DNA of 64,000 nucleotides from Microbacterium sp. HD4P20. GTDB taxonomy: Bacteria; Actinomycetota; Actinomycetes; Actinomycetales; Microbacteriaceae. Below, one piece after another: positions 25,868 to 40,013 of the stretch (positions are counted from its first letter, which is position 1; the number at the start of each line of letters is the position of its first letter). A program made the position numbers and the translations under genes. The notes under the pieces were generated by a model that made no database searches, was not told the DNA's origin, and was given only the letters and a program-made list of their open reading frames with translations. Location of the stretch: the NCBI RefSeq assembly GCF_019449275.2, contig NZ_JAHZQZ020000018.1:248001-312000 (forward strand), given 5' to 3'.

Positions 25868-28800
25868 GTGTGCTCGGACATCGTGATCTCCCGTGTCCCG
25901 GCGCGTCCGCGCGCCGCTCTCGCCTCGCTCGCCGCCACCGTCGTCGCCCTGACGGGGGTGGGGATCGCTTCTCCGGCAGCCGCTGAGGAGACACTGCCGC
26001 CCCTGGTCATCACCGAGGTGATGCAGGACAATGCCGGCACGCCGAGCGACCAGGATCACTTCGAGTTCTTCGAGGTCACCAACACCACGGCCGAGCCCAT
26101 CGACTTCGCCGACTTCCGGCTGCAGTACAACGACGCGGCCTTCATCCAGGTTGTCCAGACCGGCACGGCGACCGCGCTCACCGACGTGATCATCCCCGGT
26201 GGCGGCACCGCCGTGTTCTGGCTGCGCTACGCGGTCGGAGCCGGCGACGCCGCCGTCGAGCAGTGGCAACTGGCCGAGGCGGATTTCCGGGCGCACTACG
26301 GCGACGCCGAAGCGACCTACCCGCTCTTCCACGCCACGGGCCAGGCGGGCTTCGCCAACTCGGGTGCGCGGTCACTGCGCCTGTACGAGGGCGACGGCAC
26401 CACGGTCGTCTCGGGGGCGGACTACCACCGCCCCGCGCCGGACAAGGGTCGCGCGGATCACTTCGTCGTGCCGGCGACGGGGGTTCTGCTCACGAGCCCC
26501 ACCGCGGCCCCTGCCACGCCGGGCGCCGTCCTGCCCGAGCAGCTGGTCCGCCCCGAGCCGGATCCCGAGCCCGAGCCCACCGAGCCCGCGGAGCCGGCAG
26601 AGCCCGGGCCCGGCGCGGACGGCAACGCGGGTGAGTACTTCCCACTCGCGATCACCGAGATCCACGGCGACAACCCCGGCGCGGACGTCTCGGAGTTCGT
26701 CGAAGTCACGAACACCACCAGTGAGCCGATCGACCTGACCGCGGAGGGGATCGGGCTGCGATATCACACCAGCCAGTGGAACGCGGGAACCGCGCAGCCG
26801 TTCCTCCACCTCGAGGGCGAGAGCGACGCTCCCGTCGTGATCCCCGCCGGTGTCTCGGCTCTGTTCTGGTTGAACTACGGGGCTGACTCCGCCCAGGCGG
26901 CCCTGACGAAGGAGCAGTTCCGCACCTCCGTCGGCGCCGATCCGAGCGTGCCGGTCTACCGCTTCGGGCCGCAGGCCGGAATCGCGAACGGCGGCGACCG
27001 CGGCTTCAGCCTGGTCGGCGCGGACGGAACGCTCAGCCGCGCGTGGGCGCCCGCCGATATCGACCCCACCGGCAACTGGAACGCGCAGTTCGCCGTGCCG
27101 AGCACCATCGGCGGTGTCGACGCGGTGCTGCGGGAAGCCGGCCCCGACGTGGCGGTCACGGCCGGCACAGTGACGCTCGCGCAGGTGACGAGCGCGCTCA
27201 CCCGCCCGACCGACCCGGAGCTGCACGCGCCCCTCCTGCAGATCACCGAGGTCGCACCCGACACCGCGAATGTCGGAGGCGGTGACGGGTACGAGTTCAT
27301 CGAGGTCTACAACGCCTCGGATGCCCCGATCGACTTCGACGACTACACGCTGTCGTACCTCTACACCGACAACGCGCTCACCGGTCCTGTCACCTTGAGC
27401 TCGACACTGTGGCCGGCCGAGCCGGGCGATGTCACCATCGCGGCGGGCGGCACTCTGGTGCTGTGGGTGAAGAACCCCGCCGGCGTGGCCGCAGGACTCA
27501 CCGTCGCCGACTTCAACGAGGCGTTCGGCACGGACCTCGTGCTCGGCGACGACATCGTCGAGCTGTTCAACGGCGGCATGGCCAACGGCGGGTCGCGCGG
27601 CCTCCAGGTGCGCACGAACACCGGGCACGACATCAGTCGCGCGTACTACTTCACCAACGACCAGACCACCGCGAGCACCGCGATCCAGTACGGCTGGAAC
27701 ACGCCGTCAACGGCTCCGCTGTGGGCTCCGGCGCCGACCGACGGCACGATCCAGACGATGATGCGGCTGGATGCGCCGACGCCCGGCTCGGTGAGCGCCG
27801 ATCAGGTGCCTGCGGGCTTCGTCGCGGCTCCGGCGGCGGGCAGCGCGCCGGCGATCACCGACCTCACCGGCAGCTCGGACGTGCCCGACACGGCAGACCT
27901 CGACCTCGGCTTCGATGTGAACGACGACGTGCAGGTGCGCACGGTCACGCTCCGCATTCGCGACAACCTCGGCGCGACCCAGACCCGCAGTCTCGCCTTC
28001 GACGCGGCGAATCGGTACTACTACTCCGTACCCGCGGCCGACCTGTTCGGAAAGCGCTGGATCGAGTACACGCTGATCGCGAGCGACGGATCACAGGATG
28101 CCGAGCTCGGTCCGGTGCGCATCGACCTCGTCGACGGCGAACCCGACCCGGTACGGCTCAACCTCGTCGAGGGCCAGTTCGTCGGAGGCGACACCCGGAT
28201 CTCGGCGACGGCGGACAGCGGCGGATCCGAACTCGAGCTCACGATCGACGGCGAGCCTGTCGCCGATGCGGTCCCGTCACTCGAGACCGGCCCCGTCTTC
28301 GCCTTCGAGGCCACGAACACCGACGCGTTCTTCCGCAACGGCGTGAAGCTCGGCGACGAGGTTCTGCGGATCTTCGACGAGGGCTACTACTCCCGCATCG
28401 TCACGGTCGACGCGACGGTGCCCGTGGACCGGGTCGTTCCTGGTCAGCAGCTCACTCTCACCATCGCCGCGGGGACCAAGGCGTGGCCCGAGGCGAATGT
28501 GAATGAGAACAACGACGACTTCACGACGATGAACCTGCGCCTCGCGCTCCCCGACGGACGCGTACTGCGCCCCGACCACTGCGCCACGACGAAGGAGCAG
28601 GAGGGTGCCGTCACCGCACCCGCCTTCGTCGAGTGCCCGGCGCCGGATGCCCGGATCGCATACTCCGACGCGAACCTCGTGTCGTTCCTGGCGACGTTCA
28701 CCATCCCGGAAGACGCGTTCACCTCGGTGTCGGCCGTGTGGAAGACGACCGACACAGCCGACGGCCCTCACATCGTCGCGGCCGCGGCCGGCGAGTCCGC

Positions 28801-31366
28801 CACGTCGCGCACCGTGCACGTCGACAACACCGCGCCGGTCATCGAGAGCCCGCTGGTCGAGGGCGAGCGCTACCGCGGCCACTTCGCCGTGGATGCGACC
28901 GCCACGGATGCGGGGGCGGGTGTGGCGTCGATCACGGCGACCCTGGACGGCGATCCGATCTCGCTTCCGCTCGCGACGACCTCTCTGGCACTGCAGTCCG
29001 GCGCGCACGTCGCCGAATTCACCGCGACCGACCAGGTGGGCAACGTCGCGACGCATACTGTCTCGTTCCAGACCGCGGACGAGCAGCCGGGCATCGAGCT
29101 GGACGGCCCTGGCGACGGCGAGATCGTCCAGGACGATAGCGCTGATCTCTCCGCCACTCCCACTTCGCCGGAGCAGGACGCGCTGGACCTCAGCTTCCGT
29201 GAGGGATACAGCTTCGCGCCAGGCGACGCGGGGCTGACGGTGTCGACCGGCGCGGTCACCGATTCGGGCGTCATGGACCGCAGCTCGGGTGTCGCGCTGG
29301 CTGCCGAAGATCTCTCCAAACTGCTGGGCACCGATGGTGTGAACGTCGAGACGACGAGCACGACGGCGCTGCCGTACCAGCTCTTCACGGTCGCGGTGCC
29401 GGAAGGCACCGATGCCGGCTCGCTGGTGCGCGCCGACTGGCGCGGCAGCGCGAACGCGGACGCCAAGGTCACGCTCTACGCGCGTACCGTGGACGGCACG
29501 TGGGCACAGGCCGATCAGATGCTGACGACCGACGGCGCGGCGACCGCGTTCACGCTCGAGGCGCTCGTGCCGGTGGACGCTCACGCGACCGACGGCACGC
29601 TGACCTTCCTGGTGCAGCACTCCGAGGGCTTCGCCGCCACGGATCTGTCCACCCGTGAGAGCCCGGTGGAGCCCTACCACGTCGAGGCCACGGCGCGCGC
29701 CGAGTTCGACTTCACGGTCGGCATCGAATCGGATACGCAGTACTACAACGAGACAGACGGCTACTACCCGCACCAGCTCGCGATCCACGAGTTCCTGCTC
29801 GAGCAGCGGGCGAATCTCAATCTGCAGTATCTGATCCACACCGGCGACATCGTCAACGTCCACACGCAGCCGCACCAGTGGGCGAACGCGGATGCCGCAT
29901 ACCGCATGCTCGACGACGCGTCGCTGCCGTACGGGGTGCTCGCCGGCAACCACGACGTGGGCGGCTTCGCTGCGGACTACGCGCAGTACTCGCAGTTCTT
30001 CGGCGAGGACCGCTTCGCCGCCAGCCCCTGGTACGGGGGGTCGTACAAGGACAACCGCGGTCACTACGACCTCGTGTCGGTGGGCGGGGTGGACTTCCTG
30101 TTCCTGTACATGGGATGGCCGACGCCGAACGACGAGGCAGCCAACACCGAGGACATCGCGTGGATGAACGAGGTGATCCGGCAGTTCCCCGAGCGCAAGG
30201 TGTGGATCAACCTGCACGAGTACATGCTGACGACGGGTGGTCTCGGACCCTTCCCGCAGCGCGTGTTCGACGAGGTCGTGACGCCGAACCCGAACGTGTT
30301 CGCGGTGAGCTCGGGCCACTACCACGACGCCTACACGCGCACCGATGAGATCGACGACGACGGCGACGGGATCGCGGATCGCACCGTGTACTCGATGCTG
30401 TTCGACTATCAGGGGCTGCCCGAGGGAGGGCAGGGCTACCTGCGGCTGGCGCACTTCGACAACGAGGGCGGGCGGATCGTCTTCCGCACGTATTCGCCGT
30501 CGCTCGACGACTTCGACTCGGACGACGCTTCGCTCAACGACCCGCCGGGCATGCAGGAGTTCGAGATCCCGTACGCGGCGGCGGGAATCGTTCCGCAGGC
30601 GAAGACCCTCGCAACGGACTCGTTCCGCGCGGAGATCCTGACGGCGAACGAGATCGGCGCCGTCTCGGAGGCGCCGTCGGGGGAGCGCGCGACCGTGACG
30701 TGGGAGGACCTCGCAGAGGGCGAGCACGGCTGGTACGTGATCGCCGAGGGACCGCACGGCGGAATCGAGTACTCGCCGGTGCGCACCTTCACGACGGTGC
30801 CGGGCGAGACCGACCCGGGTGAGGGTGAGCCGGGCGGGGGCGACCCCGGTGAGGGTGAGCCCGGCGGCGGTGACCCGGGCGAGGGCGAGCCGGGCGGGGG
30901 CGATCCTGGTGAGGGTGAGCCCGGCGGCGGTGGCCCGGGCGAGGGGGAGACCGTCGAACCGTCGGGCAGCGTCGGGCCGGCCCCGGGGTACGCCCTCGTC
31001 CCCGGCGGCCGTATGCGGGTCGAGTTCCGTGGCTTCCAGCCCGGCGAAGAGGTGCGATTCGTGCTGCACTCGGCCCCCCTCGCGCTGGACGGCGTGCTCA
31101 CGGCGGACGCCGACGGCACGGTGGCGGGAGTGCTGGAGATTCCGTCTCAGACCTCAGCGGGCGTGCACCGGCTCGAGGCGATCGGCGCCTCCGGCCTGTC
31201 GGTGATGTCGGACCGCTTCACGATCTCCGCCGCGGCGGGAGCCGGTGCGAGCTCGCTTCCGTTCACCGGAGTGGACGTGGTGCCGGCGCTCCTCGTCGCA
31301 TCCGTCCTGCTCCTGCTCGGCGCCGCGGTGGTGGTCGTCGTCCGGCGGCGGCGCGTGGCGGGCTAG
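25868..31366 (+). CDS. Giant cell-wall-anchored lamin-tail-domain phosphoesterase
   Basis: This exported 1832-residue surface protein starts with a signal peptide ending in SPAAAEE. Three lamin-tail-like beta domains follow, opening LVITEVMQDN (about 42), LAITEIHGDN (about 258) and LLQITEVAPD (about 455). Ig-like repeats follow. A calcineurin-like phosphoesterase domain (about 1275-1560) carries GIESDTQYY, IHTGDIVN, LAGNHDVGG, NLHEYM and SSGHYHDA. A DPGEGEPGGG repeat linker, one more beta domain, and LPFTG plus a membrane helix and basic tail complete the sortase signal. The start may be 25868 or GTG 25883. Extracellular nucleotide or phosphate-ester hydrolysis is inferred; the substrate is unknown. 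Confidence 0.85.
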   Translation: MCSDIVISRVPARPRAALASLAATVVALTGVGIASPAAAEETLPPLVITEVMQDNAGTPSDQDHFEFFEVTNTTAEPIDFADFRLQYNDAAFIQVVQTGTATALTDVIIPGGGTAVFWLRYAVGAGDAAVEQWQLAEADFRAHYGDAEATYPLFHATGQAGFANSGARSLRLYEGDGTTVVSGADYHRPAPDKGRADHFVVPATGVLLTSPTAAPATPGAVLPEQLVRPEPDPEPEPTEPAEPAEPGPGADGNAGEYFPLAITEIHGDNPGADVSEFVEVTNTTSEPIDLTAEGIGLRYHTSQWNAGTAQPFLHLEGESDAPVVIPAGVSALFWLNYGADSAQAALTKEQFRTSVGADPSVPVYRFGPQAGIANGGDRGFSLVGADGTLSRAWAPADIDPTGNWNAQFAVPSTIGGVDAVLREAGPDVAVTAGTVTLAQVTSALTRPTDPELHAPLLQITEVAPDTANVGGGDGYEFIEVYNASDAPIDFDDYTLSYLYTDNALTGPVTLSSTLWPAEPGDVTIAAGGTLVLWVKNPAGVAAGLTVADFNEAFGTDLVLGDDIVELFNGGMANGGSRGLQVRTNTGHDISRAYYFTNDQTTASTAIQYGWNTPSTAPLWAPAPTDGTIQTMMRLDAPTPGSVSADQVPAGFVAAPAAGSAPAITDLTGSSDVPDTADLDLGFDVNDDVQVRTVTLRIRDNLGATQTRSLAFDAANRYYYSVPAADLFGKRWIEYTLIASDGSQDAELGPVRIDLVDGEPDPVRLNLVEGQFVGGDTRISATADSGGSELELTIDGEPVADAVPSLETGPVFAFEATNTDAFFRNGVKLGDEVLRIFDEGYYSRIVTVDATVPVDRVVPGQQLTLTIAAGTKAWPEANVNENNDDFTTMNLRLALPDGRVLRPDHCATTKEQEGAVTAPAFVECPAPDARIAYSDANLVSFLATFTIPEDAFTSVSAVWKTTDTADGPHIVAAAAGESATSRTVHVDNTAPVIESPLVEGERYRGHFAVDATATDAGAGVASITATLDGDPISLPLATTSLALQSGAHVAEFTATDQVGNVATHTVSFQTADEQPGIELDGPGDGEIVQDDSADLSATPTSPEQDALDLSFREGYSFAPGDAGLTVSTGAVTDSGVMDRSSGVALAAEDLSKLLGTDGVNVETTSTTALPYQLFTVAVPEGTDAGSLVRADWRGSANADAKVTLYARTVDGTWAQADQMLTTDGAATAFTLEALVPVDAHATDGTLTFLVQHSEGFAATDLSTRESPVEPYHVEATARAEFDFTVGIESDTQYYNETDGYYPHQLAIHEFLLEQRANLNLQYLIHTGDIVNVHTQPHQWANADAAYRMLDDASLPYGVLAGNHDVGGFAADYAQYSQFFGEDRFAASPWYGGSYKDNRGHYDLVSVGGVDFLFLYMGWPTPNDEAANTEDIAWMNEVIRQFPERKVWINLHEYMLTTGGLGPFPQRVFDEVVTPNPNVFAVSSGHYHDAYTRTDEIDDDGDGIADRTVYSMLFDYQGLPEGGQGYLRLAHFDNEGGRIVFRTYSPSLDDFDSDDASLNDPPGMQEFEIPYAAAGIVPQAKTLATDSFRAEILTANEIGAVSEAPSGERATVTWEDLAEGEHGWYVIAEGPHGGIEYSPVRTFTTVPGETDPGEGEPGGGDPGEGEPGGGDPGEGEPGGGDPGEGEPGGGGPGEGETVEPSGSVGPAPGYALVPGGRMRVEFRGFQPGEEVRFVLHSAPLALDGVLTADADGTVAGVLEIPSQTSAGVHRLEAIGASGLSVMSDRFTISAAAGAGASSLPFTGVDVVPALLVASVLLLLGAAVVVVVRRRRVAG
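30812..30931 (+). repeat. Four 30-bp tandem repeats coding DPGEGEPGGG
   Basis: Units begin at 30812, 30842, 30872 and 30902; a partial fifth follows. Units 1 and 3 share one set of codon choices and units 2 and 4 another, so the last expansion step duplicated a 60-bp pair. They form the flexible stalk before the sortase signal. Confidence 0.85.
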
Positions 31367-34604: not shown

Positions 34605-34694
34605 ATTTCAGAGGTGCTTCATAGGACTGGTTGTCAGGATGCTTTCGGGGCCGTGGCATCACGGCCTCGACGTCACGAGCCAGGAGGACCATCC

Positions 34695-35156
34695 ATGATC
34701 CGCACCGCCCTCGCCCCCCGTCCCGTCCGCGCCGGCGCCACCCTGGCGGCCGTCGCGGGAATCGCCCTTCTCGCCGGATGCGCTCCCGCGACCGAGAGCG
34801 CCGCCGACGAGCCGTCGGAGGAAGCGAACTCGAACGAGTCCGAGGCCACGGGATCCGGCTCGTACGCGGACGGCACGTACACGGCGGACGGCACATACGC
34901 GACACCCGAGACGGTCGAGACCATCTCGGTCACGGTGACCCTCGAGGGCGATGTCATCACGGATGTCGAGGTCACCGGCGAGCCGCAGCGCAGCGAGTCG
35001 GAGCAGTATCAGGGCGAGTTCATCGGCGGAATCGCCGAGGTCGTGGTGGGGCAGAACATCGACGACATCCAGGTCAGCCGCGTGGCAGGATCCTCGCTCA
35101 CCAGCGGCGGATTCAACGAGGCGATCGAGACCATCAAGGCCGACGCTGCCGAGTGA
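34695..35156 (+). CDS. FMN-binding lipoprotein
   Basis: This 153-residue exported lipoprotein (lipobox LAGC, Cys29) has an acidic Ser/Glu linker and an FMN_bind domain. The C-terminal segment GSSLTSGGFNEAIETI resembles the site where ApbE links FMN through phosphoester to a Thr; Thr136 is the best candidate. GGAGG lies before the ATG. The apbE start overlaps this gene's stop, and an NqrB-like/FNR fusion follows. It is probably the extracytoplasmic electron carrier of the module. Confidence 0.87.
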   Translation: MIRTALAPRPVRAGATLAAVAGIALLAGCAPATESAADEPSEEANSNESEATGSGSYADGTYTADGTYATPETVETISVTVTLEGDVITDVEVTGEPQRSESEQYQGEFIGGIAEVVVGQNIDDIQVSRVAGSSLTSGGFNEAIETIKADAAE

Positions 35157-36100
35157 GGCGGTCCGGTGAGGCGGCCGGTGAGGCCGTGACCGGCGGAGGT
35201 GTCGGCGCGGCGCCGGCCGTGTGGCGATTCGACGCGATCGGCACCGGGTGGGAGGTCGTCACGGCACTCGAGCTGCCCGGCCCGGCTCGCGCCGAGGTGC
35301 TGCGGGTGATCGACGCGTTCGACCGCGCATGGTCCCGATTCCGCGGCGACTCCACGGTGCGCGGGCTCGCCCGTAGGCCGCGGGCGGTCACCGCGCCGCC
35401 TGACGCGGTCCCCATGCTCGACGCGTTCGCCGCGCTGTCGGAGGCCACTGGCGGCGCGGTCAATCCGCTCGTCGGCGGCTCGCTCGAAAGTCGCGGCTAC
35501 GACGCCTCGTACTCGTTCCGCGACAACGGCGCCGTGCCGGCACCGCCGGACTGGCGTGAGCTGCTCTCGTGGCGCGAGGGCGTCCTCGAGCTGCATCAGC
35601 CGGCGACGATCGACGTGGGCGCACTCGGCAAGGGCCGTCTGGTCGACCTCGTACTCGCCGTGGTCGGGGCTGCCGCGACCGGCGACGTGATCGTCGACGC
35701 CGGCGGTGACCTGGCCGTGCGCGGGGCGCCGCAGCGCATCGGGCTGGAGCATCCGTTCGACTCCCGGCGTGCGATCGGGCTGTGGGAGGTGACGGATGCC
35801 GCGCTCTGCGCGTCGGCGACGAACCGGCGTGCGTGGCCGGCGTCGACGGGCGCCGGGCTGCACCATGTGCTCGACGCGCGCACAGGGGAGCCCGTGCGCA
35901 CGATCGCCGCCACGTGGGCTGTCGCCGGCGACGCCATGACAGCGGACGCGATCGCGACCGCGCTGTTCTTCGACGGCGGCCCTCGGCTCGCCCATGAGTG
36001 GAAGGTGGAGTGGGTGCGCATGACGACCGACGGCCGGCTGGAATGGTCTCCCGGATGCGGAGCCGACCTGTTCGTGCGAAGGGATACCGTTGCACAGTGA
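35153..36100 (+). CDS. apbE: FAD:protein FMN transferase
   Basis: ApbE splits FAD and attaches FMN covalently to Thr residues of extracytoplasmic flavoproteins. The 315-residue protein carries DVGALGKGRLVD, the FAD-binding DAGGDLAVRG, HHVLDARTGEPV and the metal-binding TWAVAGDAMTADAIATALF. I do not see a clear signal peptide, which is unusual for the classical lipoprotein form but common in short actinobacterial ApbE. GTG 35153 overlaps the upstream stop (GTGA); GTG 35186 is an alternative. Confidence 0.9.
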   Translation: MRRSGEAAGEAVTGGGVGAAPAVWRFDAIGTGWEVVTALELPGPARAEVLRVIDAFDRAWSRFRGDSTVRGLARRPRAVTAPPDAVPMLDAFAALSEATGGAVNPLVGGSLESRGYDASYSFRDNGAVPAPPDWRELLSWREGVLELHQPATIDVGALGKGRLVDLVLAVVGAAATGDVIVDAGGDLAVRGAPQRIGLEHPFDSRRAIGLWEVTDAALCASATNRRAWPASTGAGLHHVLDARTGEPVRTIAATWAVAGDAMTADAIATALFFDGGPRLAHEWKVEWVRMTTDGRLEWSPGCGADLFVRRDTVAQ

Positions 36101-36139
36101 CCGATTTCCTCGCCCTCGAGCCGCTGCGGGCGGTGTGAC

Positions 36140-37705
36140 ATGCTCGGAACGCTGACCTCTGCCTGGAACCGGGTCTTCGCCGTCCTCGGTCGTGTGTCGA
36201 TGTACCGCCTGGCCTATCTCGCACTGGCCGCGCTCGCCGTGATCGCGCTGCTGCTGTCGTTCTTCGGACTCGTGGGCCCGGCGCCGCTCGAGCTCGTGGT
36301 GACGCTGGCCGTGCTGTCGGCGGTCTGCGTCGGGGTGGATGCGGCGATGCAGCGCGTGCTGGGGCTGCCCTGGCGCATCGAGTCGTCGCTGATCACCGCG
36401 CACATCCTGCTGTTCGTGCTGCGTCCCACGCTGGAGCTCGGAGGTCTTGCCGGCGTGGCGATCGCGGCCCTCGCCGCGTCGCTGTCGAAGTACGTCCTCG
36501 CCTGGCGCGGCCGCCACATCTTCAACCCGGCGGCGGTCGGTGCGACCGTGCTGACCCTGCTGAGCGTGCCGTGGCCGGCACTGGGCTCATCGTCCTGGTG
36601 GGTCGGTACGCCGGCGATGGCCGCACCGGTGATCGTCCTGGGGATCCTCGTGCTGGTGCGCACCGAGAAGCTGCGGGTGGTGACCGGCTTCGTCGTGATC
36701 GCCGTCGCCGTCGCGGTGCTGCGCACGGCTGCGCAGTACCAGGCGGCGGGAGTCGAGGTCGAGGTGCTCGACATCGTCTCGCCGCTCCTGTGGTCCTCGC
36801 CGTTCCTGTTCCTCGGGGCGTTCATGCTCTCCGAGCCGCTCACCCTGCCACCGCGCCGGTGGCAGCAGTTCGCCGTGGCGGCCGTGGTCGGCGTGCTCGC
36901 AGGCTGGCCGATCCCCGTCGGCGACATCACGCTCGGCCAGGAGCGGGCACTGCTCATCGGCAACCTCGTCGCCTTCGCGTTCGCGGTGCGCACCGCGGTC
37001 CGGCTGACGCTCGTGTCACGCGCCGCGCCGACCCCCACGGTGCGCGAGCTGACCTTCCGCGTGCACGACCGGCTGTCGTTCGTGCCGGGACAGTACCTCG
37101 AGCTGGAGGTTCCGCACCGGCATCCCGACGCCCGCGGGACACGACGGGAGTTCAGCATCGCCTCGGCACCGGGGGACCTGCCGCAGCTCAAGGTCGCCTT
37201 CAAAGACGGGTCGAGTTCGAAGCCGCTGAGCTCGTACAAGAAGGCGCTCGCCGAGGTCGGTGAAGGCGACGGACTGGCGATCACGGGGGTGTGGGGCGAC
37301 TTCCTGCTGCCCAAGCGCGACTCCGCGCCGATCCTGATGGTCGCGGCGGGGATCGGGGTGACGCCGTTCGTCTCGCAACTGCGTCACACCCGTCTCACGG
37401 GCCAGGAACGCGACGTCGTGCTCGTCTACGTCGTGTCGGGTGCCGCCGAGTTGGCGTACCGCGATGAGATCGAGGCATCCGGGGTCCACGTCGTGGTCTT
37501 CTCGCGCGACAGCCCCGCCGACCTCCCCCCGCACTGGCAGTGGGCGCGCGGCGTGCGGCTGGACGCGGACGGCCTGTTGCGCGTGGTGCCCGACATCGGG
37601 GCACGCCACGCGTACATCTCGGGGCCGGCGGCGCTCATCGCCGACCTGGCACCCGCGCTCGAGCGCGCCCGTTCCATCACGACCGACGCCTTCAGCGGCT
37701 ACTGA
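36140..37705 (+). CDS. NqrB/RnfD-like membrane protein fused to a ferredoxin-reductase domain
   Basis: The 521-residue fusion has about nine membrane helices in residues 20-290, with the NqrB/RnfD-type motif RGRHIFNPAAVGATVLT. The GAT at 134-136 resembles a flavinylation site. A cytosolic FNR module (about 295-521) has FAD-binding RREFSIASAPG and NAD(P)-binding MVAAGIGVTPFVSQLRH. It lacks a 2Fe-2S ferredoxin tail. It should take electrons from NAD(P)H in the cytosol, pass them across the membrane through bound flavins, and hand them to the upstream FMN lipoprotein. The terminal acceptor is unknown. Confidence 0.88.
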   Translation: MLGTLTSAWNRVFAVLGRVSMYRLAYLALAALAVIALLLSFFGLVGPAPLELVVTLAVLSAVCVGVDAAMQRVLGLPWRIESSLITAHILLFVLRPTLELGGLAGVAIAALAASLSKYVLAWRGRHIFNPAAVGATVLTLLSVPWPALGSSSWWVGTPAMAAPVIVLGILVLVRTEKLRVVTGFVVIAVAVAVLRTAAQYQAAGVEVEVLDIVSPLLWSSPFLFLGAFMLSEPLTLPPRRWQQFAVAAVVGVLAGWPIPVGDITLGQERALLIGNLVAFAFAVRTAVRLTLVSRAAPTPTVRELTFRVHDRLSFVPGQYLELEVPHRHPDARGTRREFSIASAPGDLPQLKVAFKDGSSSKPLSSYKKALAEVGEGDGLAITGVWGDFLLPKRDSAPILMVAAGIGVTPFVSQLRHTRLTGQERDVVLVYVVSGAAELAYRDEIEASGVHVVVFSRDSPADLPPHWQWARGVRLDADGLLRVVPDIGARHAYISGPAALIADLAPALERARSITTDAFSGY

Positions 37706-37716
37706 CCCGAGATGCC

Positions 37717-39288
37717 TCAGGCCGCCGGGTCGGACGGCCGAGCGGGCAGGCGCACCTCGAACAGCGTGTCGCCGGGCGAGCTGGTCACAGTGAGGGTGCC
37801 GCGGTGGGCATCGACGATCGCGCGCGCGATCGACAGGCCGAGCCCCGTGCCGCCGGTCTGACGCGCGCGGGACCTGTCGGCGCGCGAGAAGCGCTCGAAC
37901 AGCTCGTCCGTGATCGCCGGGTCGATGCCGGGGCCGTCGTCGTGCACGCGCAGCACCGCTTTCGCCCCCTCACGGGCGACACTCACCGTGACCGTCGTCC
38001 CCTCCGGAGTATGCGTGCGCGCGTTCGCCAGCAGATTGGCCGCGACCTGGTGCAGCCGGCCTGCGTCGCCGGCGACCAGCACCGGCTCGTCGCCCACGTC
38101 GAGCACCCACCTGTGGCGAGGGCCGGTCGGGCGGGCATCTCCGACCGCGTCGATCACGAGCCGGGTCAGGTCGACGGTTCCGAAGACGAGCTCCTGCCCC
38201 TCGTCCAGGCGTGCCAGCAGCAGCAGGTCTTCGACGAGAGAGGTCATGCGCAGCGACTGCGCCTGGATGCGCTCGAGCGACGTCTGGGTGTTCTCGATCG
38301 TCGCGGGCGCGTGGTCGCGGCCCAGCGCGCGCAGCGACAACTCGGAGTATCCGCGGATGGATGCCAGCGGCGTGCGCAGCTCGTGACTCGCGTCGGCGAC
38401 GAACGCCCGCATGCGCTCCTCGTTGCGCTGGCGGACCGTGAGCGATTCATCGACGTGGTCCAGGAGCGAGTTCAGCGCCTCGCCCACGCGCCCGACCTCC
38501 GTCCGGGGATCGGCCTGGGCGGCCGGGACGCGCTCCGCGATGGAGACTTCGCCTTGATCCAGTCGCTGCGTGGAGACGCGTGCTGCCGTGTCGGCCACGG
38601 CGCGCAGCGGCGCGAGTCCCGCGCGGATCGTCCAGGCCGTCGCCGTGGCGAGCAGGACGAGTCCTCCTGCCGTGAGCAGTCCGATGGCGGTGAGCATCTG
38701 CGCGATCGTGTTGGCGACCTTGTCGCGCGACAGCCCGACGACGATGAACGACTCGCCGATCCACTCGCCGTCCACACGGAACGTGCCGACCTCGTCGATC
38801 GTGACGATGAGCGGACCCTCGCGCGGCACGGTCGCGACGAGCTGCGCGAGCTGCTCGTCGGTGAGGGCGACGATCGAGCCGTCCTCACCCACGTAGGCCG
38901 CGGTGGCCGCGGCGGGGAGCGTCTGGACGACGAGCAGGGTGCCGGGCCGCATCGGCTGCTTGGCGAGGATGTCCTCCGCCGACATCCCGGCGATCAGGTA
39001 TGTTCGGGCGTGGCTGGCGGTGCTCTGGGTCTGCTCGCGCAGTTCGCTCGTGAGCCCGTCCTCGACGACGGCGCCGAGGATCGCGCTCGTGGCGACGCCC
39101 ACCAGCACGAGGATGAACGACGTGATCGACACCACCGTGACGATCAGCTTCCGCTGCAGTGTCCACGGCGCGTGTCGCGGCCGTTGCGCGCTCGGCTCCG
39201 GTGGGGTCGCAACCTGGGCGGTCGCCGCCTCCGGGGCATCCGTCACCAGCTGGGTGCCGTGGTGCGGCTCGCGCGAGCCGTCCGTCAT
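37717..39288 (-). CDS. Two-component sensor histidine kinase
   Basis: This 523-residue membrane kinase has TM1 near residues 48-72, an extracytoplasmic sensor of about 130 residues, TM2, HAMP, HisKA and HATPase_c. The HisKA domain has phospho-acceptor His302 in DASHELRTPLASI. The ATPase has NLLANARTHTPEG, DDGPGIDP and GGTGLGLSIA. The order resembles the actinobacterial TrcS/TcrY group. The ATG overlaps the regulator's stop (ATGA). It ends 11 bases from the convergent redox gene, so a link to redox sensing is possible but only positional. Confidence 0.93.
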   Translation of the reverse strand: MTDGSREPHHGTQLVTDAPEAATAQVATPPEPSAQRPRHAPWTLQRKLIVTVVSITSFILVLVGVATSAILGAVVEDGLTSELREQTQSTASHARTYLIAGMSAEDILAKQPMRPGTLLVVQTLPAAATAAYVGEDGSIVALTDEQLAQLVATVPREGPLIVTIDEVGTFRVDGEWIGESFIVVGLSRDKVANTIAQMLTAIGLLTAGGLVLLATATAWTIRAGLAPLRAVADTAARVSTQRLDQGEVSIAERVPAAQADPRTEVGRVGEALNSLLDHVDESLTVRQRNEERMRAFVADASHELRTPLASIRGYSELSLRALGRDHAPATIENTQTSLERIQAQSLRMTSLVEDLLLLARLDEGQELVFGTVDLTRLVIDAVGDARPTGPRHRWVLDVGDEPVLVAGDAGRLHQVAANLLANARTHTPEGTTVTVSVAREGAKAVLRVHDDGPGIDPAITDELFERFSRADRSRARQTGGTGLGLSIARAIVDAHRGTLTVTSSPGDTLFEVRLPARPSDPAA

Positions 39289-40013
39289 TGCGGAGCCTTG
39301 ATCATGTACCCGACGCCGCGCACGGTATGGATGAGCGGCTCGCGCCCCGCATCGATCTTCTTGCGCAAGTACGAGATGTACAGCTCGACGACGCTGGAGC
39401 GTCCGCCGAAGTCGTAGTTCCACACGCGGTCGAGGATCTGCGCCTTCGAGACCACGCGGCGCTGATTGCGCATGAGATAACGCAGCAGCTCGAACTCGGT
39501 CGCGGTCAGCTCGATCTCGTCGCCGGCACGTTCGACTTCGTGGCTGTCCTCGTTGAGGGTGAGTTCTCCCACGCGCAGGATCGGCTCGGCCCCTGCGGCA
39601 TGGGCCGTGCCGGCGCGACGCATCAGGCCGCGCAGGCGAGCGACCACCTCCTCGAGGCTGAACGGCTTCGTGACGTAGTCGTCGCCACCGGCGGTGAGGC
39701 CCGCGACGCGGTCGCCCACGGCGTCCTTCGCGGTGAGGAAGAGCACCGGCACGTCATCGCCGGACTGACGCAGTCGCTGCAGCACCGCCATGCCGTCGAG
39801 GTCGGGCATCATGATGTCGAGCACCATCGCGTCGGGCGCGAACTCGCGCGCCGCCTGCAGCGCCTCGAACCCCGAACCGGCCGATCGCACCTCCCAGCCC
39901 TCCATGCGGAGCGCCATCGACAGCAGATCGGTGAGCATCTGCTCGTCGTCGACCACCAGGACGCGAAGAGCGGAGCCGTCGGGGCGGTGAAGCGCAGGCG
40001 CGGGGGAGGTCAT
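39285..40013 (-). CDS. OmpR-family response regulator
   Basis: This 242-residue partner of the adjacent kinase has a receiver domain with acidic pocket VDDE (residues 21-24), phospho-acceptor Asp66 in VLDIMMPD, Thr in FLTAKD and Lys in VTKPFS. The C-terminal winged helix contains LTATEFELLRYLM and SSVVELYISYLRKKID. CATGAT lies 6 bases before the ATG. Three CTATG boxes just upstream may be its own binding sites, suggesting autoregulation. Confidence 0.94.
   Translation of the reverse strand: MTSPAPALHRPDGSALRVLVVDDEQMLTDLLSMALRMEGWEVRSAGSGFEALQAAREFAPDAMVLDIMMPDLDGMAVLQRLRQSGDDVPVLFLTAKDAVGDRVAGLTAGGDDYVTKPFSLEEVVARLRGLMRRAGTAHAAGAEPILRVGELTLNEDSHEVERAGDEIELTATEFELLRYLMRNQRRVVSKAQILDRVWNYDFGGRSSVVELYISYLRKKIDAGREPLIHTVRGVGYMIKAPQ

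Follow-up and report, generated by a model that had tools for sequence, protein, structure and literature searches.

The window analysed here is a stretch of 64,000 nucleotides from Microbacterium sp. HD4P20, and our interest is in three consecutive + strand genes at 34695-37705, which encode a lipoprotein, an ApbE-type flavin transferase and a fusion of an NqrB/RnfD-like membrane domain to an FNR-type domain. The unit is flanked by prs on one side and by a convergent histidine kinase gene on the other (Table 1). The GTG start of the ApbE gene overlaps the stop of the lipoprotein gene by 4 bases, and neither a promoter nor a terminator pattern was detected. The initial annotation had described these genes as a three-gene unit, and this is confirmed: all three are in place on the + strand, and of the 57 other family loci with a called fusion, 53 have them contiguous and in the same order. 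This is a real, conserved unit and not a chance arrangement.

Table 1. Positions in the window of the unit, its ribosome-binding motif and the adjoining regulatory pair (FMN, flavin mononucleotide; FAD, flavin adenine dinucleotide).
Feature	Position	Strand	Details
Shine-Dalgarno-like AGGAGG	34682..34687	+	just 5' of the lipoprotein ATG, by sequence inspection
FMN_bind lipoprotein (NqrC/RnfG-like)	34695..35156	+	153 amino acids; lipobox Cys29; predicted flavin acceptor Ser134 in AGSSLTS
ApbE, FAD:protein FMN transferase	35153..36100	+	315 amino acids from GTG at 35153; alternative GTG at 35186 gives 304 amino acids
NqrB/RnfD-like membrane domain + FNR-type FAD/NAD(P)H domain	36140..37705	+	521 amino acids; domains at about 16-285 and about 285-521
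Two-component system	37717..40013	-	convergent with the unit

The family sample consisted of 150 Microbacteriaceae genomes, 68 of which gave a match to the fusion at E ≤ 1e-10; four of these were FNR-only, leaving 64 genomes with the fusion. Sixty fusion loci were fetched and the fusion was called in 57 of them (it was not called in L050, L088 and L092, which were left out; the gene caller was trained on high-GC genes). An ApbE match was present in all 64 fusion-bearing genomes, exactly one in 38 of them, and at least one was present in 47 of the 86 genomes without the fusion, although one gene can split into several matches, which may inflate the counts above one. The scan of named genomes confirmed 425 loci, of which the best 80 were kept, and the figures given below for named loci refer to these 80. 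They come from Microbacterium, Arthrobacter, other Actinomycetes, Dictyobacter (Chloroflexota) and candidate phyla (Saccharibacteria, Uhrbacteria), and the trio was contiguous in 65 of the 80 at the first threshold used. The closest named relative at the locus among these 80 is Microbacterium salsuginis (L093), whose fusion is 94% identical. In a sample of the phylum the membrane domain was matched in 8 of 396 genomes, and the remaining 89 of the 97 matches were FNR-only, among them one from the same genus (G462). This spread agrees with the 2021 survey, which lists 127 clusters in total from 31,910 genomes (PMC8238504). The same survey already named the Actinobacteria as a main holder of such systems.

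The C-terminal part of the fusion matches NAD_binding_1 (PF00175, 23.9 bits against a cut-off of 22), and in the same protein NQR2_RnfD_RnfE (PF03116) gives an E-value of 1.4e-5 and 25.1 bits, under its cut-off of 27.7. Our genome-wide searches covered the 4.03 Mb source genome in its 22 contigs, and because the search with PF03116 returned no match there at E ≤ 0.001, surveys defined by this family may overlook and thus undercount this branch. The AlphaFold2 model of the fusion, built from a 31-sequence alignment, had a mean predicted local distance difference test score (pLDDT) of 92.3 and a predicted template modelling score of 0.86. It matched RnfD (8rbq_D, Z 23.1, 263 residues aligned, root mean square deviation (rmsd) 6.8) and NqrB (8evu_B, Z 21.8, 253 aligned, rmsd 3.8), as well as NqrF (8ad0_F, Z 23.5, 236 aligned) and, with the FNR fold, the FAD/NAD portion of a flavohemoprotein (4eh1_A, Z 24.8). 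No Cys is conserved in the fusion, 16 of the 31 sequences having none at all, and the membrane domain has a single conserved His (30 of 31); both an iron-sulphur cluster and a bis-His heme are therefore unlikely. Residues 144-221 of RnfD, which presumably hold its acceptor Thr, have about 9 counterparts in the membrane domain, in an alignment whose N-terminal half is weak (2.3 bits). The initial annotation had allowed for a covalent flavin on either protein, and for the membrane protein this finds no support, since its domain seems to be short of these 78 RnfD residues and the class to which it belongs has been reported to be without the NqrB/RnfD acceptor site (Huang et al. 2024, PMC11334425). 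In that work the external flavin was modelled, for Ktedonobacter, near a non-covalent flavin site (PMC11334425).

The lipoprotein scores 22.6 bits with FMN_bind, whose cut-off is 22, and is the single FMN_bind match in the source genome, no second copy being detected. Its AlphaFold2 model (31-sequence alignment) had a mean pLDDT of 79.3, and most of residues 60-153 scored above 90; a Foldseek search on its own returned nothing for this model at E ≤ 0.001. The best fold match was domain 2 of SaFMN3 (8p2a, Z 11.0, 87 aligned, rmsd 2.1), followed by CbFMN4 (Z 9.2), NqrC (4xa7, 8.8), 3o6u (8.5) and RnfG (7zc6_G, 8.4); only 8p2a stands out, given that unrelated chains scored Z 8.9 and 8.7 against the same model. 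In the profile alignment to 8p2a, GSSLTs of the lipoprotein lies over GATYTS, which puts Ser134 on the last place of SGAT and Thr136 two places further on, at the T of the YTS that follows. The published motif for ApbE substrates is Dxx[S/T]GA[S/T], whose last residue carries the FMN (PMC12052999). In a comparison of the 31 lipoproteins with this motif, the G and the last Ser were present in 31 of 31 and the place of the A was Ser in 31 of 31, whereas only 10 had the D and only 7 had S at the first [S/T] position. Since G132, S133, S134, L135 and T136 are identical in all 31 sequences, conservation does not decide between the two residues. Thr136 was the flavinylation residue named at first; it is conserved, as was claimed, but on the motif position and the 8p2a alignment we reject it as the acceptor in favour of Ser134, which we take as the predicted site.

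Among the named loci, the form [ASG]GSSLT was found in 59 of 72 lipoproteins, and a GA[S/T] form (for example SGATDTS) in seven (L161, L162, L164, L166, L167, L168 and L172), none of which carries an actinobacterial title. The remaining six (L118, L130, L151, L153, L165 and L169) fit no motif pattern, the first of these being a truncated call that contains GSSLTS. The GSS form also extends beyond the Actinobacteria, as AGSSLTG in a locus titled Saccharibacteria (L155).

The ApbE protein was matched by its Pfam family with an E-value of 1.2e-36 (127.1 bits) and could be aligned to solved FMN transferases with a best E-value of 3.7e-27. Ser210, His227 and Asp254 (numbering of the 304-residue form) fall on catalytic positions with the spacing of Ser241, His257 and Asp285 (PMC12052999). 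The genome search detected only this one ApbE. As a measure of an export signal we took the 15-residue stretch ahead of the ApbE domain with the largest mean hydrophobicity, with a threshold of 1.7; for the family ApbEs the reading ran upstream until the previous in-frame stop was reached, or for 90 residues at most. The ApbE of the unit has no hydrophobic N-terminus in either its 315-residue or its 304-residue form, and none of the 58 family copies reaches the threshold, the highest value being 1.58. Among 73 named copies none passed either, with a maximum of 1.34 when the open frame upstream was included and 1.29 from the called start. The called open reading frame begins right at the ApbE domain in L162, L164, L166 and L168, which are candidate-phylum and Dictyobacter loci. 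By the same kind of measure, E. coli Ftp, an ApbE, scored 1.99, and 18 of 30 control ApbEs, the best-scoring matches in other classes of the phylum, scored at least 1.7. This last figure is rough, because in at least four controls (L230, L234, L239 and L247) the profile match begins late and the true N-terminus lies outside the measurement, and because L237, at 1.71, is not signal-like; L250-L253 and a few others fell below the threshold. The lipoproteins of the family have a median hydrophobicity of 2.00 and carry a lipobox in 57 of 58 cases, with a twin Arg ahead of it in seven (two short lipoproteins were skipped in this comparison, and of the ApbEs it used 44 of 55, leaving out those shorter than 270 residues). 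Eight of the 72 lipoproteins from named loci were below 1.5, mostly with late called starts.

Taken together, the unit is a further member of the published NQR/RNF-like flavinylation class (PMC8238504, PMC11334425). That class was defined by a position within five genes of ApbE or FMN_bind genes, at least one of which has a signal peptide or lipidation site, and here a lipobox-bearing FMN_bind protein and ApbE are directly adjacent. Like other members, the unit has its membrane domain fused to PF00175 and occurs in Actinobacteria and candidate phyla, and its membrane domain may also lack an NqrB-type acceptor; it differs in its AGSSLTS (Ser) motif, its PF03116 score below cut-off and an ApbE with no visible signal. 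The Ser motif and the signal-less ApbE were not met in the passages and sections consulted of the two class papers (PMC8238504, PMC11334425), figures and supplements aside, and we found no paper on an FMN-binding protein in Microbacterium. Relatives of NqrB/RnfD, of NqrC/RnfG and of the NqrF FAD domain link the unit to Na+-NQR and RNF, whereas the genome holds no homologue of NqrD/E or RnfA/E (PF02508 gave no match in the source genome and matched in 4 of 14 control genomes) and the fusion has no conserved Cys. The extracellular electron transfer system of Listeria (Ndh2, EetB, FmnA, FmnB, PplA), in which NDH-2 is the electron donor, likewise has a lipoprotein with covalent FMN as its external carrier and an ApbE-type transferase. 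In that system flavinylation takes place outside the cell, and EetB and FmnA are needed for flavin export (PMC9973259). MsrQ-like systems are also transmembrane donors for FMN_bind proteins and are common in Actinobacteria (PMC8238504), but they have a heme-binding PF01794 protein, and none was detected in the source genome at E ≤ 0.001, against matches in 4 of 14 control genomes.

It is highly probable, in our view, that the three genes encode a metal-free electron wire of the NQR/RNF-like class, made of two proteins and spanning the membrane, together with its maturation enzyme. NAD(P)H would reduce FAD in the cytosolic FNR domain, and the NqrB/RnfD-like membrane domain would carry the electrons across by a non-covalent flavin, or a quinone, to an FMN bound covalently to Ser134 in the external lipoprotein, where ApbE would have attached it. 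Their final acceptor would lie outside the cytosol and is most likely a small oxidant, for instance Fe(III) or another metal complex. The route from NAD(P)H through the FNR and membrane domains to an external FMN protein is also the model published for the class (PMC8238504, PMC11334425), and the predicted folds fit it. The electron route of the initial annotation thus stands in outline, and what finds no support in detail is Thr136 and the placing of a flavin on either protein. As to where the flavin is attached, we infer from an ApbE with no visible signal, the only one detected, next to a lipoprotein substrate, that the lipoprotein most likely receives its flavin from ApbE while still in the cytosol, ahead of its export. 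Extended to the members in Actinobacteria, a Chloroflexota species and candidate phyla, the proposal that a cytosolic ApbE flavinylates the precursor where FAD is abundant, and that the FMN-bearing chain is then exported, is tentative; it could well hold and could somewhat more easily fail.

Several observations weigh against this interpretation. The FMN_bind match is only 0.6 bit above its cut-off, and the family-wide search with FMN_bind missed the copy of the source genome. The trio is not contiguous in 4 of the 57 family loci: in L073 a called open reading frame interrupts it, in L079 ApbE and the fusion stand in a single frame, and in L084 and L091 no ApbE adjoins the fusion, their genomes holding 3 and 4 ApbE matches, one of which (L212) is strongly like the ApbE of the unit. 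(The join in L079 was dropped as evidence on topology, as it resembles a frameshift.) The lack of an ApbE signal was judged by hydrophobicity and not by SignalP. Family ApbEs that do not adjoin a fusion (L203-L222) also failed the threshold, 0 of 20; these were hand-picked, and one of them, L212 (score 349), belongs to the type found in the unit. This rules out a lack of signal confined to the ApbE of the unit and makes the absence a lineage trait, so that signal-less ApbEs may be the rule in the Microbacteriaceae. In an early study, moreover, ApbE worked only if periplasmic and failed when kept in the cytosol (PMC12052999). Finally, none of the conserved neighbours listed for the 57 family and 80 named loci names an electron acceptor.

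One alternative is an ApbE that is exported without a recognisable signal and acts outside the cell, so that flavinylation happens beyond the cytosol, as it does in Listeria and Vibrio. The majority of the ApbEs characterised to date are lipoproteins that are exported, and one made without its first 20 residues was inactive in the early test (PMC12052999); cytosolic ApbEs with cytosolic targets are also known, from Klebsiella (PMC12052999). Given that none of the 58 family copies reaches the threshold even on the upstream reading, and that four called frames start at the ApbE domain itself, we regard external action as unlikely, although it deserves some weight. A quinone as the acceptor, or an inward flow as in an NQR-like quinone reductase, would fit the resemblance of the membrane domain to NqrB, whose riboflavin, according to a review, passes its electrons to ubiquinone. 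Only one half of the NQR path is present, however, as the genome has no NqrD/E-type subunit, and here the FNR domain is fused directly to the membrane domain, which makes this reading rather unlikely.

It could also be that the lipoprotein is not flavinylated at all; ApbE would then act on a different target or in FAD turnover, while the fusion would reduce quinone or oxygen and have the lipoprotein as its partner. The motif AGSS departs from the canonical [S/T]GA[S/T], and ApbE uses Ser less well than Thr (PMC12052999). Against this, GSSLT is invariant in the alignment and lies over SGAT, seven named relatives have GAS or GAT at the same place, and the genome pairs one ApbE with one adjoining FMN_bind protein, so we think the idea improbable. 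Least credible to us is a signalling circuit made up of the unit and the adjoining histidine kinase and response regulator. The kinase adjoins the fusion in 18 of the 80 named loci and is 2-3 genes off in 5 more, all in records titled Microbacterium or Actinomycetota bacterium (L116, L117), but it is on the opposite strand, and among the 57 family loci only the same-genus L033 has it beside the unit. The two-component system that had been remarked upon alongside is thus present and convergent, as a neighbour found almost only in Microbacterium, and the pair is unlikely to be part of the unit. A different kinase (38% identity) adjoins one Patescibacteria copy, L162.

The branch is common yet poorly annotated, with the fusion in 64 of 150 Microbacteriaceae genomes compared to the 127 clusters of the 2021 survey. 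The larger point is how FAD meets ApbE, a route which the 2025 review called obscure (PMC12052999) and for which Listeria depends on a dedicated flavin exporter (PMC9973259). If loading does precede export, such an exporter would not be needed, and there would be a general export route for proteins loaded with a covalent cofactor, mostly with no twin-arginine signal. We found no paper on a signal-less ApbE paired with an exported target, and the combination was not met in the portions consulted of PMC8238504, PMC11334425 and PMC12052999, figures and supplements aside. A single-copy ApbE that has no visible signal and adjoins its lipoprotein substrate makes flavinylation before export directly testable.

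On the strand of the trio, counted over 58 family loci including the window with one representative scanned per family, no neighbour family adjoined the trio in more than 14 loci. That number was reached by an NAD(P)H-hydrate dehydratase directly upstream of the lipoprotein gene (for example L056:9999-10844), and directly downstream of the trio lay a GT87-type glycosyltransferase in 11 and Hsp20 in 9 of the 58. In Arthrobacter, the genes in divergent orientation next to the unit are argS-lysA-hom (L126 being the locus scanned). Upstream of the unit, 11 of the 80 named loci have a gene for a PMR1-type P-type ATPase inserted after prs (L093:1757-4501 and 10 more; 10 within three genes); all are titled Microbacterium except L108. 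This ATPase had no match in the source genome at E ≤ 1e-50 in a search run without a control genome. L169 has an MgtA-type ATPase and, directly downstream of the fusion, an NRAMP transporter (L169:7494-8777); in the same place L172 has a VIT1 iron transporter (L172:7537-8250) and L156 a weak cupredoxin match below cut-off (L156:6026-6523). On the basis of six clusters with VIT1, Meheust et al. (2021, PMC8238504) proposed a role in metal reduction, and the scattered VIT1, NRAMP and P-type ATPase genes fit this weakly.

A few smaller observations concern single loci. L108, titled Stenotrophomonas maltophilia, shows a Microbacterium-like stretch of glmU, prs, ATPase and unit and is likely a contamination. 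In L110 the PMR1-type ATPase is followed by the fusion, and neither the lipoprotein nor ApbE was detected there. A DUF305/DUF4142 protein stands directly upstream of the unit in L155 (L155:3861-4553), titled Saccharibacteria. Elsewhere in the window, at 25868-31366, a protein of 1832 amino acids combines lamin-tail domains with a calcineurin-like phosphoesterase domain.

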